From: Christiangramia sabulilitoris
GTDB lineage: Bacteria > Bacteroidota > Bacteroidia > Flavobacteriales > Flavobacteriaceae
NCBI RefSeq assembly: GCF_007050985.1
Contig: NZ_VHSF01000003.1
Location: 345,500 to 409,499, forward strand
Length of the DNA stretch: 64,000 nt
Direction: 5' to 3'
In this document: positions 13,011 through 35,274 of the stretch, piece after piece
Position numbering within the stretch: position 1 is the stretch's first letter
Layout of the letters: every line of letters begins with the position of its first letter
Made by a program: the position numbers and the translations under genes
Notes under the pieces: generated by a model
What the model saw: only the letters and a program-made list of their open reading frames with translations
Database searches by the model: none
What the model was told of the DNA's origin: nothing

Positions 13011-15707
13011 ATGAAAAAAGCATTAAAAATACTCGGATTTGCAATTTTAACGATCCTTATATTATTGATCGTGGCCCCATTTGTTTTTGAATCACAATTA
13101 AAGGATCTGGTAAAGAAAACAATGAACCAGAATCTCAATGCCCAGGTGGATTTTGAAGATATAGACCTTAGTATGTTTCGAAGTTTTCCTAAAGCCACGC
13201 TTGTGATCAAGGATATAAGTATTATCAACAATGAACCGTTCAAAGGCGACACCCTTGCCCTGGGTGAGGAAGTTACCCTGGAAATGTCTGTCAACGAGCT
13301 CTTCAAAAGCAGTGAGAAGGCCAAAAAGATAGATAAGCTGAGTCTCAATAACGCCTATATCAATATTAAGGTTGATTCCCTGGGAAATACAAATTATGAT
13401 ATTGCAATTGAGGATACGACCACTTCAGCTTCATCTGGAAAACCCTTTTCCCTTGATCTTAAACACTACGAGATCAATAATTCCCGGGTTAAATATGATG
13501 ATAAGTCTTCAAAAGTATTCCTGGATATTGAAAACCTGAATCACGAAGGGAATGGAGATTTTTCCATGGATCAATCTGAACTGGATACCTATTCTGAAGC
13601 TTTGGTATCCCTGGATTATGACGAGGTGAATTATTTAAATCAAAATCCCGTGAGTCTTAATGCGGTTCTCCAGATAGACCTTTCTACCAGTACATATACC
13701 TTCCTGGAAAATGAAGCCAAAGTAAATCAACTACCCTTAACTTTTGATGGATATGTTAAAGTCAACGAGGATAATACAGAGATGGACCTTACCTTTAAAA
13801 CTCCTTCTTCAGACTTCAAAAATTTCCTTGCTGTAATTCCCGAGATCTACGCTAAAAATATTGAAAATGTCGAAACCAACGGAGACTTTGTGGTGAATGG
13901 AAGGATCTTTGGCAAGGCTGATGAACTTTATATTCCAAAAATAGACATAAAAATCACTTCTAGTAATGCATCCTTTAAATATCCTGATCTTCCGAAGAGT
14001 GTAGAAGATATTAACCTGGATATAGAAGTAATGAATGATGTTGGTATTGCCGAAGAAACCTATATCGATATAAATAATGCCACCTTCAGAATAGATCAGG
14101 ATAAGTTTCTGGCTAAGGGGAAAATCAGGAATATTACAGAAAACATGCTTATTGATCTTGCCTTAAAAGGCACGGTGAACCTGGCCAATATTACCCGGGC
14201 TTATCCCCTGGATCTGGAACAGGATCTAAATGGAATTCTTACCGCCGATATTAAAACGAGTTTTGATATGAATTCTATCGAAAATGAAAGATATCAGAAT
14301 GTGAATAGTAGCGGAACTGCGACGATTACAGATTTTAGATATTCATCCCCCGAAATACCTAATGAGGTTAAGATCTCCAATGCCGAAATGAACTTTAATC
14401 AGGGAGATGTTCGTATTCCGGACTTGAAAATGACCACGGGTAAGACCGATATAAACGCGACCGGTAGCTTGCAGAACTTAATTGGTTTTCTACTTACAGA
14501 TGAGCAGCTGAAAGGAAACTTCCAGGTAAAATCCAATACTTTCTCGGTCAATGATTTTATGGTAGCTGAAACCGAAGAGATCACCACGAAAGATGAAAAT
14601 GGAAATGATAGGACGGTTGCCAAAAATACCGGAAAGGAGGCTGTAAAAATTCCATCGTTCCTGGATATGGAACTTAATTTTGATGCGAATACCGTTTTAT
14701 ACGACAACCTGGAATTAAAGAATGCCAAAGGGGTCCTGGTAATACGTGATGAAACCGCCAGCCTTAAAAATGTTACTACCAATATTTTTAATGGTAGTAT
14801 TGGTGCTAACGGACTGGTTTCTACCAAAAATCCCACTCCGATTTTTGAAATGAACCTTGATTTGAATTCCCTTGATATTGCATCCTCCTTCCAGGGTCTG
14901 GAATTAATGCAGAGTCTTGCCCCGTTAGCCACGGCAATCGAAGGGAAATTACAGTCTACGGTGAACCTAAAGGGAAATCTAAATGAAGACTTCACCCCTC
15001 AACTTGCCAGTATCGCTGGAAATGCCCTGGCTGAATTATTGACCGCCGAGATCAATCCCCAGAAAGCAGCCTTACTTTCTAAACTAAATAGCCAGTTGAA
15101 TTTTATTGATTTCAGCAAAATAGATCTGAACAAATTAAAAACACGTCTAACGTTTAATGACGGAATGGTCGAGGTTGCTCCTTTCGATTTTGATATAAAA
15201 GGAATTAAATTCCAGGTTTCGGGAAGTCACGGTTTTGATATGAATATGAATTATGATCTCAAGCTAGATGTTCCGGCAAAATATCTTGGCTCTGAAGTAG
15301 GCGCAACCCTGGGTAAGTTAAGTGGAGAAAATATTGAAAATACAATGGTGGAATTACCAATTGGTATTAGAGGTAATTTTAGCAGTCCACAGATTAATTT
15401 GAATATGCAGCAGGCAGTTAACAGCCTTACGCAAAAAGTTGTGGAACAACAAAGACGAAATCTTGAGGACAAGGCTGTAGATGCCATTAACGATATCCTG
15501 CAGGGGAAAAGAGATCCTAATAAACCATTTGTTAAAAATGATACTACCGTTGCCGGCAATAAGAAGGGAGATTCTACTGCAACCAGGATTCCGCCAATGC
15601 GCGACTCCATTTCTCAACAGAAGCAGGTGCAGGATGCCGCAAGAAATATTCTGGGAGGAATTTTAAAAAATTCGAAGAAAAAAACTGACACTACTAAGCA
15701 AAACTAA
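13011..15707 (+). CDS. AsmA family protein, 898 aa
   Basis: One N-terminal membrane helix (about residues 7-25, GFAILTILILLIVAPFVF) is followed by a long, beta-strand-rich periplasmic part, typical of AsmA/VPS13-like bridge proteins. The N-terminal AsmA pattern (F-E-D-I-D-L-S-M-F-R-S-F-P-K-A-T-L) is clear at about 47-63, and the AsmA-like C-terminal domain (G-L-V-S-T-K-N-P...L-A-P-L-A-T-A-I-E-G) falls at about 600-800. The last 100 residues are polar and low in complexity (K, T, D, Q). Members of the family help move phospholipids to, or control assembly of, the outer membrane. The gene follows yhhQ by 58 bases. Its convergent side opens into the repeat array at 15775. Confidence 0.9.
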   Translation: MKKALKILGFAILTILILLIVAPFVFESQLKDLVKKTMNQNLNAQVDFEDIDLSMFRSFPKATLVIKDISIINNEPFKGDTLALGEEVTLEMSVNELFKSSEKAKKIDKLSLNNAYINIKVDSLGNTNYDIAIEDTTTSASSGKPFSLDLKHYEINNSRVKYDDKSSKVFLDIENLNHEGNGDFSMDQSELDTYSEALVSLDYDEVNYLNQNPVSLNAVLQIDLSTSTYTFLENEAKVNQLPLTFDGYVKVNEDNTEMDLTFKTPSSDFKNFLAVIPEIYAKNIENVETNGDFVVNGRIFGKADELYIPKIDIKITSSNASFKYPDLPKSVEDINLDIEVMNDVGIAEETYIDINNATFRIDQDKFLAKGKIRNITENMLIDLALKGTVNLANITRAYPLDLEQDLNGILTADIKTSFDMNSIENERYQNVNSSGTATITDFRYSSPEIPNEVKISNAEMNFNQGDVRIPDLKMTTGKTDINATGSLQNLIGFLLTDEQLKGNFQVKSNTFSVNDFMVAETEEITTKDENGNDRTVAKNTGKEAVKIPSFLDMELNFDANTVLYDNLELKNAKGVLVIRDETASLKNVTTNIFNGSIGANGLVSTKNPTPIFEMNLDLNSLDIASSFQGLELMQSLAPLATAIEGKLQSTVNLKGNLNEDFTPQLASIAGNALAELLTAEINPQKAALLSKLNSQLNFIDFSKIDLNKLKTRLTFNDGMVEVAPFDFDIKGIKFQVSGSHGFDMNMNYDLKLDVPAKYLGSEVGATLGKLSGENIENTMVELPIGIRGNFSSPQINLNMQQAVNSLTQKVVEQQRRNLEDKAVDAINDILQGKRDPNKPFVKNDTTVAGNKKGDSTATRIPPMRDSISQQKQVQDAARNILGGILKNSKKKTDTTKQN

Positions 15708-16180
15708 TGCTTTCGAGCAGATTGGCTTTTTTAATAAAGTGAAGAGATATTATGTTCTGCGATACCCTGCAATTGTCATTTCGATGAAGCGAAGCGCAGG
15801 AGAAATCTCATGGACAATTGGAATTTCCATAATGAGAAGCGTCTGGAATCTCTGGATTACCTGAGATGCTGAAATAAATTCTGAAAGGAGATGTTGAAAC
15901 AAGTTCAGCATGACAATACTTATAATTGCCATTTCGACGAAGCAAAGCACAGCAGAAATCTCCTGGACATTTGGAACTTCCATTACCTGAAGTTTCGGGA
16001 GTTTCTGGAGGACCTGCGATGCTGAAATCAATTTAAAAAGAATATGCTGAAACAAGTTCAGCATGACGGAATTACTAATTGGTCATTTCGACGGAGCGAA
16101 GCGCAGGAGAAATCTCTTAAACATTTGGAACTACCATAACCTGAAGTATCGGAAGTTTCAGGGTCTCGTGAGATACTTGT
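15708..16180. repeat. Three-copy 153-bp tandem repeat array with inverted ends
   Basis: Copies begin at 15775, 15928 and 16082 (period 153-154). Copies 1 and 2 are each 140 bp, start with G-T/C-CATTTCGA and end with a hairpin GCTGAA/TTCAGC followed by ATGAC, so each unit is bounded by GTCAT...ATGAC (GCCAT at the left end of copy 2). The third copy (16082 to about 16172) lacks the right-hand hairpin and is cut off just before the stop of the DUF2797 gene. Conserved blocks are the left GAAGCGAAGCGCAGGAGAAATCTC-like block, GGACATTTGGAACTTCCAT in the middle, and the right hairpin. Similar non-coding elements are common in Flavobacteriia and often give rise to false 'MLNLFQH' protein predictions. 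No other gene is in this 473-bp gap. Confidence 0.9.
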
Positions 16181-16978
16181 TTACACAAGAACCTTCAACT
16201 CCACAACTAATCCTTCATTACCACGCACATTAAAAACAGTGCCGTCACCATAGATCAGGTACTGCCCTTTAATACCTTTCAAAATACCTTCATAAAAAGG
16301 ATTTTTGACCAGGTTCAGGGATTTTATCTTTTCGGGGAATTCCTCTACCGGAAATTTAATCTCAGTTTCTTTATTGCTCGCCAGGTAATATTCTTTAGCT
16401 TCCTCCGGGATAAATTCCTTTAATTTCTCACGCTCTTCAGCCAGGTCCAGGTCCAGTACATCATTTGTAAGCATCTTTCTCCAGTTGGTCTTATCTGAGA
16501 CATGTTCCTTTAAAGCAACCTCGGTAATACCCGCCAGATAACGGTTAGGAACTTCCACGATCTCGATCGCTTCATGCGCCCCCTGGTCTATCCACCTTGT
16601 AGGGATCTGGCTTTTCCTGGTGACCCCAACCTTAACATCACTGGAATTGGCCAGGTAGACAACGTGTGGTCTTAACTGGGCTCTTTTTTCAAATTCAAGA
16701 TCACGATCTTCTTCGTCTAAATGGGCCCTGCTTAATTCAGGATTGATCACCCAATCCCCGGCTTGAGGGATAGCGCCGAAACAGTCATAACAAAAGCCCT
16801 GCCGGTAGATCTTCTTTTCCAACCCGCAATTGAGACACTGATACCTAAGAAAATTAAGGCTCATTTTCTTACCAATCATCTGGTTCATGTTGATAAAATC
16901 GTTTTCCCAGACCAGGTAGTACTGAACCACATCAGTAATTTCTGTTCTCATCTTCGTTAGAACTCCTTCGTATCTCAT
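16181..16978 (-). CDS. DUF2797 protein with four-cysteine zinc motif
   Basis: The 265-aa cytoplasmic protein has C48-x2-C51 and C63-x2-C66, a likely zinc ribbon, followed by the strongly conserved block V-K-V-G-V-T-R-K-S-Q-I-P-T-R-W-I-D-Q-G-A (about 115-134), the signature of DUF2797. That block resembles a GIY-YIG-like nuclease core (strand, then Gly and Arg), but the biochemical role of the family is unknown. It is transcribed divergently from the GH3 gene and ends at the repeat array. The family assignment is firm; the nuclease comparison is only a suggestion. Confidence 0.88.
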   Translation of the reverse strand: MRYEGVLTKMRTEITDVVQYYLVWENDFINMNQMIGKKMSLNFLRYQCLNCGLEKKIYRQGFCYDCFGAIPQAGDWVINPELSRAHLDEEDRDLEFEKRAQLRPHVVYLANSSDVKVGVTRKSQIPTRWIDQGAHEAIEIVEVPNRYLAGITEVALKEHVSDKTNWRKMLTNDVLDLDLAEEREKLKEFIPEEAKEYYLASNKETEIKFPVEEFPEKIKSLNLVKNPFYEGILKGIKGQYLIYGDGTVFNVRGNEGLVVELKVLV

Positions 16979-34478: not shown

Positions 34479-35274
34479 GCTTATCAAACGATTTATATTC
34501 TTACTTGTACTTCTATCGGGATTCAGCGTCCTGGCACAGCGGGATGTCCCGCCACGACCAACTGAACAGACCAGTGTATATGATGAGGCAGACATGCTTT
34601 CATCTTCAGATGAAAAAAGGCTGGAAGAAAAGCTGATTAATTATGCTGATACTACTTCTACCCAAATAGTAGTGATAACCATCCAGTCATTGGAAGGTGA
34701 GTATGAAGGCACCTATGCTGCACATTGGGCCCACGAATGGGAAATTGGCCAAAGCGATAAAGATAATGGCCTTCTTGTCCTGGTAGCTCAAAAAGAACGC
34801 AAGATCTGGATTACCACGGGATATGGCCTCGAAGAATACCTTACCGATGCCAGGACCAAAGAGATCATAGAACTAATCATTTTACCAGAATTCAGGAACG
34901 GAGATATTTACGCCGGGCTGGACAAAGGCACCTCGGCCATATTTGAAGTTCTTAACGGTACGTTTACGGGAGTTCGCAGCCCTGGCAATACCGGTGGAGG
35001 TGGAATATCTATGAAGACCATCATTTTCTTTTTTATCTTCTTTGTCATCCTCGTATCCATTTTCAATAAGAAAGGTGGAGGTAGAAACGGTGGAAGAAGA
35101 ACCGGAAAAAGCGTTCTCTGGGATGCGATCATTCTAAGCTCCCTGGGGCGCGGAAGTTTTGGTGGAGGCGGTTTTGGAGGCGGTAGCTCTGGAGGCGGAT
35201 TTGGTGGCGGTGGCTTTGGTGGAGGCTTCGGCGGCGGTGGTTTTGGCGGTGGTGGTGCCGGCGGAAGCTGGTAA
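34432..35274 (+). CDS. TPM domain protein with signal peptide, membrane helix and Gly-rich tail
   Basis: The 280-aa protein starts inside the preceding gene (ATG at 34432, with another at 34438), overlapping it by 47 or 41 bases; no ATG or GTG start lies in frame between there and the hydrophobic core. It has a signal peptide (h-region F-I-F-L-L-V-L-L-S-G, cut after L-A-Q at about 36), a TPM domain (V-Y-D-E-A-D-M-L to about 180), one membrane helix (about 192-208), and a Gly/Ser/Phe tail from 236 on (G-G-G-F-G-G-G repeats ending G-S-W). This is the YgcG layout. A terminator follows. Confidence 0.92.
   Translation: MKMTPTNYLIKFQKDKLIKRFIFLLVLLSGFSVLAQRDVPPRPTEQTSVYDEADMLSSSDEKRLEEKLINYADTTSTQIVVITIQSLEGEYEGTYAAHWAHEWEIGQSDKDNGLLVLVAQKERKIWITTGYGLEEYLTDARTKEIIELIILPEFRNGDIYAGLDKGTSAIFEVLNGTFTGVRSPGNTGGGGISMKTIIFFFIFFVILVSIFNKKGGGRNGGRRTGKSVLWDAIILSSLGRGSFGGGGFGGGSSGGGFGGGGFGGGFGGGGFGGGGAGGSW

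Follow-up and report, generated by a model that had tools for sequence, protein, structure and literature searches.

CGTC-class REP hairpins in a convergent intergenic hotspot of Christiangramia sabulilitoris and their association with small GIY-YIG nuclease genes

Introduction

REPs are among the commonest repeats of bacterial genomes. The CGTC-tagged superfamily is defined by a CGTC or TGTC head, a stem of 8-9 bp and a loop of 4-5 nt (Di Nocera, De Gregorio and Rocco 2013, PMC3733652); its families include Bacteroidetes, with G. forsetii listed as CGTC-positive, and dRS3 of Neisseria as well as RPE-4 and RPE-6 of Rickettsia are placed in it. No transposase gene could be tied to CGTC repeats in that survey (PMC3733652, Table 1 and "REPs and tyrosine transposases"). 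The array described here, from a window of 64,000 nucleotides of the Christiangramia sabulilitoris genome, shares with these repeats the unpaired CGTC/TGTC head, first stem pairs that are mostly A-T, an 8-bp stem, a 5-nt loop, a short tail, an intergenic position and head-to-head heterodimers; however, the published repeats are not linked to transposase genes, whereas here a GIY-YIG nuclease partner is found.

Two other systems are close. In the GTAG REPs or REPINs with RAYT (TnpA-REP), also called REPtrons, REP pairs likewise stand around a small nuclease gene, often at one chromosomal site, with cognate pairing of REP and enzyme and many REPs elsewhere. They differ in the GTAG head and the HUH tyrosine transposase, while here the head is GTC, the enzyme is a hydrolytic GIY-YIG nuclease and Y1_Tnp is absent. 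GIY-YIG homing endonucleases (I-TevI type) and UPF0213/YhbQ have the same catalytic domain (PF01541), but the REP-linked proteins are stand-alone, about 95 aa long, not in introns and tied to REP hairpins.

Results and Discussion

Structure of the array

An earlier note, made from the sequence alone, described a 153-bp tandem element, and the repeat is real: TRF gives 2.5 units of 153 bp (81% matches, score 494), far stronger than any other array in the window, with direct copies starting at 15775, 15928 and 16082 (spacing 153 and 154 bp), the later two being 78% and 62% identical to copy 1. However, it is not a single element, as the note had it: two distinct REP families, L and R, alternate in it in the order L> <R L> <R L> (Table 1). 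Both have a GTC-A head and an AT-CTC tail and follow one plan, an unpaired GTC head, a stem starting with A-T and a CTC tail; R reads GTC-ATGCTGAA-CTTGT-TTCAGCAT-CTC and L reads GTC-ATTTCGA...GAGAAAT-CTC. The head-to-head gap from R to L is 13-14 bp and the tail-to-tail gap from L to R is 78 bp. The palindrome GCTGAA-ACAAG-TTCAGC, noted as GCTGAA-N5-TTCAGC, shows no mismatch in copy 2 (16044-16067) and a single one in copy 1 (15891-15914). The inverted GTCAT/ATGAC ends proposed as unit boundaries are the conserved part, although copy 2 opens with GCCAT. The third copy is truncated as described, with its left block and most of the centre kept and the right hairpin lost at the DUF2797 stop (16181). 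At 35156-35264 the window also has short coding repeats in tandem, rich in Gly (12, 15 and 27 bp), which are unrelated to the array.

Table 1. Features of the AsmA/DUF2797 locus, in positions of the window.
Feature	Position	Strand	Basis
Upstream convergent gene, AsmA-like protein	13011-15707	+	ORF; ortholog adjoins DUF2797 in most genus members
L1, L-type REP, head GTC, tail CTC	15775-15809	+	sequence; L pattern dispersed in genome; flanks L-type GIY-YIG genes
Tail-to-tail spacer 1, with half R copy 15863-15881	15810-15887		sequence
R1, R-type REP (GTCATGCTGAACTTGTTTCAACATCTC)	15888-15914	-	one mismatch to consensus
Head-to-head spacer of dimer <R1 L2>	15915-15927		sequence; <R L> dimer recurs elsewhere in genus
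L2, L-type REP, head altered to GCC	15928-15962	+	sequence
Tail-to-tail spacer 2, with degenerate hairpin 15985-16014 and half R 16016-16033	15963-16040		sequence
R2, R-type REP, perfect 8-bp stem, head CGTC, tail altered (ATT)	16041-16067	-	sequence; stem covariation
Head-to-head spacer of dimer <R2 L3>	16068-16081		sequence; dimer recurrence
L3, L-type REP, last intact array member	16082-16116	+	sequence
Third-spacer remnant, with degenerate R5-like hairpin 16139-16167, ending at DUF2797 stop	16117-16180		sequence
Downstream convergent gene, DUF2797 protein	16181-16978	-	ORF; orthologs in 24/24 genus genomes

Class membership and hairpin conservation

The heads of R1 (TGTC), R2 (CGTC) and L1 (TGTC) agree with the CGTC tag (CGTC, or TGTC/CCTC), and those of L3 (GGTC) and L2 (TGCC) are degenerate forms. 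With a stem of 8 bp and a loop of 5, R lies within the published range (8-9 bp starting from A-T pairs, loop 4-5), whereas L, with an ATTTC/GAAAT stem of about 5 bp and a long loop, lies outside it; R fits the CGTC-tagged superfamily, and L is therefore a short-stem, long-loop relative rather than a member. The short unpaired CTC tail is present in L1-L3 and R1 and altered in R2, and many dispersed intergenic copies and dimers occur. A linked transposase is absent, as published for CGTC REPs (an observation and not a defining trait), and GIY-YIG genes are linked instead. The GTAG head of RAYT-associated REPs is not present in the array, where the head is GTC-A. As for MITEs, the inverted ends are present and whole dimers are duplicated at the two compared sites (A and B, below), and at these two sites no short target duplication was seen.

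The R hairpin is under selection, because in 89 distinct family-wide copies, chosen by sequence alone, 96.9% of stem cells pair, a value reached by none of 1000 shuffles, and double changes number 34 where 8 would be expected; this is the folding conservation that the note wished to see examined. The same covariation result was obtained with a smaller R set, in which some rows were picked by pairing and some CTC tails were added by hand, so the 89-copy set is the cleaner test. A loose 19-mer hairpin pattern was dropped as too permissive. Of the two natures that the note had offered, REP/MITE-like element or structured RNA, the REP-like one holds, while nothing supports a dedicated structured RNA: the array has no Rfam match at E<=0.1.

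Dispersal and the AsmA/DUF2797 hotspot

Copies exist elsewhere in the genome and in relatives, which the note had set as a check. BLAST with the array gives 13 matches in its own genome (the array itself counted), where 34 R copies occur at up to 3 mismatches (reversed control 0) along with 10 exact-ended L copies (gapped pattern), and it finds matches in 27/59 genomes drawn from the genus up to the order. What turns up again elsewhere in the genus is the head-to-head dimer <R L>, and R and L each occur singly and in other combinations. The 78-bp tail-to-tail spacer was rejected as a conserved element, since, apart from weak relics at two or three other loci, it is essentially private to the AsmA/DUF2797 locus.

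Five relatives (G006, G007, G018, G019 and G020) have a gap of 37-54 bp between the two genes; these are the empty sites that the note had proposed to look for. In many other relatives the gap holds different REP combinations, among them further tandem arrays (G012 and G005); it is a convergent intergenic REP hotspot. The position between convergent genes, and the terminator-like empty sites of REP-free relatives, could also suggest hairpins for termination or RNA stability that were amplified locally by slippage and were never mobile. We give this explanation almost no credence, as the same REPs are dispersed across genome and family, different REP types substitute for one another at one site, and conservation of the unpaired GTC head extends over many phyla.

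Small GIY-YIG genes are bracketed by GTCA hairpins

The note was right that no transposase is encoded nearby and that any mobilisation would require an enzyme in trans; Y1_Tnp (PF01797) has no match in the whole genome either. The enzyme that it suggested, RAYT, was rejected as mobiliser, being absent from this genome and, in the 8/24 genus members that have Y1_Tnp genes, without R or L at the flanks of those genes. Small PF01541 genes, on the other hand, are multi-copy in most REP-rich members of the genus and few in REP-poor ones, with REP matches only tens of bases away from them; the exception is G013, which has REPs and only housekeeping GIY-YIG genes.

In 80 GIY-YIG loci from many phyla, a non-random sample ordered by resemblance to a single R-type protein, the density of GTC-A-headed hairpins is 7.48 per kb in the 100 bp next to the gene, falls to 3.10 per kb between 100 and 200 bp and is down to 0.17 per kb at a distance of 1.6-5 kb, an enrichment of about 44-fold, while five permuted heads reach 0-0.63 per kb near the gene. 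Hairpins stand on both sides within 250 bp at 47/80 GIY-YIG genes against 2/284 other ORFs of the same loci (Fisher p 7e-35), in 30 of these cases with outward-pointing heads, and at 19/80 loci no GTCA hairpin (stem of at least 7) was found within 250 bp. The near and far densities are 6.03 and 0.24 per kb for genus genes collected by Pfam search, and 5.38 and 0.28 per kb for 13 plasmid records. Loci with both flanks occupied come from Bacteroidota, several proteobacterial classes, Patescibacteria, Omnitrophota, Elusimicrobiota, Spirochaetota, Armatimonadota and a Thermotogota bin, some of them being short metagenome contigs whose individual phylum assignments may be wrong. The GTCATTCCC-type hairpins that bracket GIY-YIG genes in other phyla presumably resemble dRS3. 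The association of GIY-YIG genes with REPs is strong, and it points to small GIY-YIG nucleases as the enzyme partner that CGTC-class repeats have long lacked.

It could be argued that the array is an ordinary REP array moved in trans by an unlinked RAYT or other transposase, with an incidental GIY-YIG link, as GTAG REPs do function with RAYTs (PMC3733652, PMC8266576) and the genus has some Y1_Tnp genes. However, the distribution of Y1_Tnp given above, the CGTC repeats without a linked transposase in PMC3733652 and the 44-fold association, with its scrambled-head controls, make this very unlikely.

Two observations concern single genes of this kind. At L118 (1402-1494) an R-type GIY-YIG gene has its longest ORF beginning inside the upstream REP, and the peptide MLNQVQHDGV...RHPELDSGS is REP DNA read as protein; start sites of REP-flanked GIY-YIG genes can therefore be misannotated. 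On a Planktothrix plasmid (L340, NZ_LR882964.1) a gene of the same clade has an MmeI-type restriction-modification gene on one side and DISARM drmA on the other, with no GTCA hairpins nearby.

The protein

The REP-linked proteins are stand-alone PF01541 domains, among which the GIY-YIG motif, Arg28, His32 and Glu65 are invariant. The predicted structure is confident (mean pLDDT 94.6), and the closest folds to the model are the nuclease domains of UPF0213, UvrC and Slx1, with UPF0213 as the closest solved structure. UvrC incises damaged DNA and Slx1 branched DNA, and because these are among the nearest folds, the model makes it plausible that the hairpin would be a substrate of the REP-linked nuclease.

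REP type follows nuclease subfamily

In the genus and near relatives, L lies within 300 bp of L-type genes in 8/8 cases and R by R-type genes in 11/12, the R unit having the order R5> gene <R, where R5 is GTCACCCTGAACTTGTTTCAGGGT. Distances between proteins and between their REPs are correlated (Mantel r 0.30, n=83; cross-phylum r 0.43, n=61; 0/2000 permutations each), and more weakly so in the genus subset alone (n=22, 78/2000 permutations). Among 149 genomes, one per genus, with gene presence set by our own cut-off of about 59-60% identity, R REPs occur in 22/23 genomes with the R gene and still in 38/126 without a close R-type gene (p=2e-9), and at least 4 L REPs occur in 5/9 genomes with the L gene against 4/140 (p=2.5e-5); the crossed pairs are weaker. 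R REPs average 10.2 per genome with the R gene and 1.3 without it, which is an eightfold difference. In 400-kb samples of four genus members no clear relation was seen between the genome-wide content of L, R and T1 and the resident nuclease variant. The genome studied here has an R-type nuclease gene (G000:C17:581655-581936); no L-type gene was found in it, and therefore its L copies probably are relics, or else a related gene serves them.

Orthologous sites with and without the gene

GIY-YIG genes occupy orthologous places across the genus. At one of them some species have an L-type gene with GTCATTTCGACC-AGGGAGAAATCT, and elsewhere, this genome included, the same place has a diverged T1 form of the gene with GTCATTCCGAC-AGGAGGAATCT. 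At site B the gene lies between REPs in this genome, G015 and G016, and the same position holds a lone <R R5> dimer in G012 and G022 and a lone dimer of another type in G002 and G004. Site A holds only a relic in this genome, one gene in five relatives and two in tandem in G012; a relic similar to the third-spacer remnant of Table 1 is found at the empty site A in L252 (E=0.0018, spacer profile). Orthologous sites thus read dimer, dimer-gene-dimer or dimer-gene-dimer-gene-dimer, with 0, 1 or 2 gene copies, and the repeated unit is therefore the gene plus a dimer, between direct-repeat dimers. The array of the window has the same order as the gene-bearing sites, with the 78-bp spacer in the place where the gene sits in gene-bearing relatives (spacer 1, compared with sites A and B), so that, from the arrangement of the sequence, it looks like a gene-less form of a REP> GIY-YIG gene <REP module.

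A separate locus (L103/L136, G011:C1:1373300-1376700) carries three tandem GIY-YIG genes with a period of about 520 bp and REP-like flanks in common, a gene-bearing counterpart of the tandem array of the window.

The main rival explanation is that of a homing-type parasite, where REPs spread by another route and the GIY-YIG gene only cuts or lands at ready-made REPs. Gene-less dimers stand exactly where relatives have dimer-gene-dimer (G012 and G022, site B), whole dimers are duplicated on either side of the gene, and R REPs are found in the 38 genomes without a close R-type gene, all of which such a parasite would explain. Against it, the REP type switches with the nuclease subfamily even at one orthologous site (the L and T1 variants), R REPs are eightfold more numerous where the R gene is present, and no other candidate enzyme is in sight; we find a homing parasite unlikely, though to be taken seriously.

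Proposed mechanism and meaning

We think it likely that the array is a cluster of CGTC-class REPs in a convergent hotspot and a gene-less form of the GIY-YIG module, with cutting and spread as follows. A cognate GIY-YIG nuclease would recognise the hairpin with its GTC head and cut at or beside it, and repair of the break by recombination with another REP-flanked copy would spread the REPs, sometimes together with the gene. Since GIY-YIG enzymes hydrolyse DNA and have no joining activity, this spread would rely on host repair. Recombination between the repeated dimers could then lead to loss of the gene, or to gain and loss of tandem copies such as those of the 153-bp array.

Beyond this locus, we lean, with little more than an even mind, towards the view that in many phyla the whole CGTC REP superfamily has its own dedicated enzymes in small GIY-YIG nucleases, which would be a second REP-enzyme partnership independent of RAYT and GTAG. 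If true, a hydrolytic, hairpin-recognising nuclease and host recombination would replace the HUH transposase. For the CGTC half of REPs no enzyme came out of the published survey (PMC3733652), and a small testable protein with cognate REP types is now proposed for it. The link would also offer a function for the very common annotation "GIY-YIG nuclease family protein", and it predicts which repeats of a genome go with which nuclease. In the open-licence literature we found no paper linking GIY-YIG with REP, palindromic repeat, RAYT, REPIN, dRS3 or inverted repeat, and no match to the literal repeat sequences; GIY is not mentioned in PMC12306157, PMC5082802 or PMC10969869. Judged against open-licence papers only, the link is new.

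Finally, a separate set of GIY-YIG genes of about 80 aa adjoins tRNA or tmRNA genes in genus genomes (L131, L137, L147, L154, L146, L148, L167, L135, L170 and L171). Several of these genes are enclosed by directly repeated tRNA ends, in some cases as tandem arrays, and the set looks like tRNA-targeting relatives.
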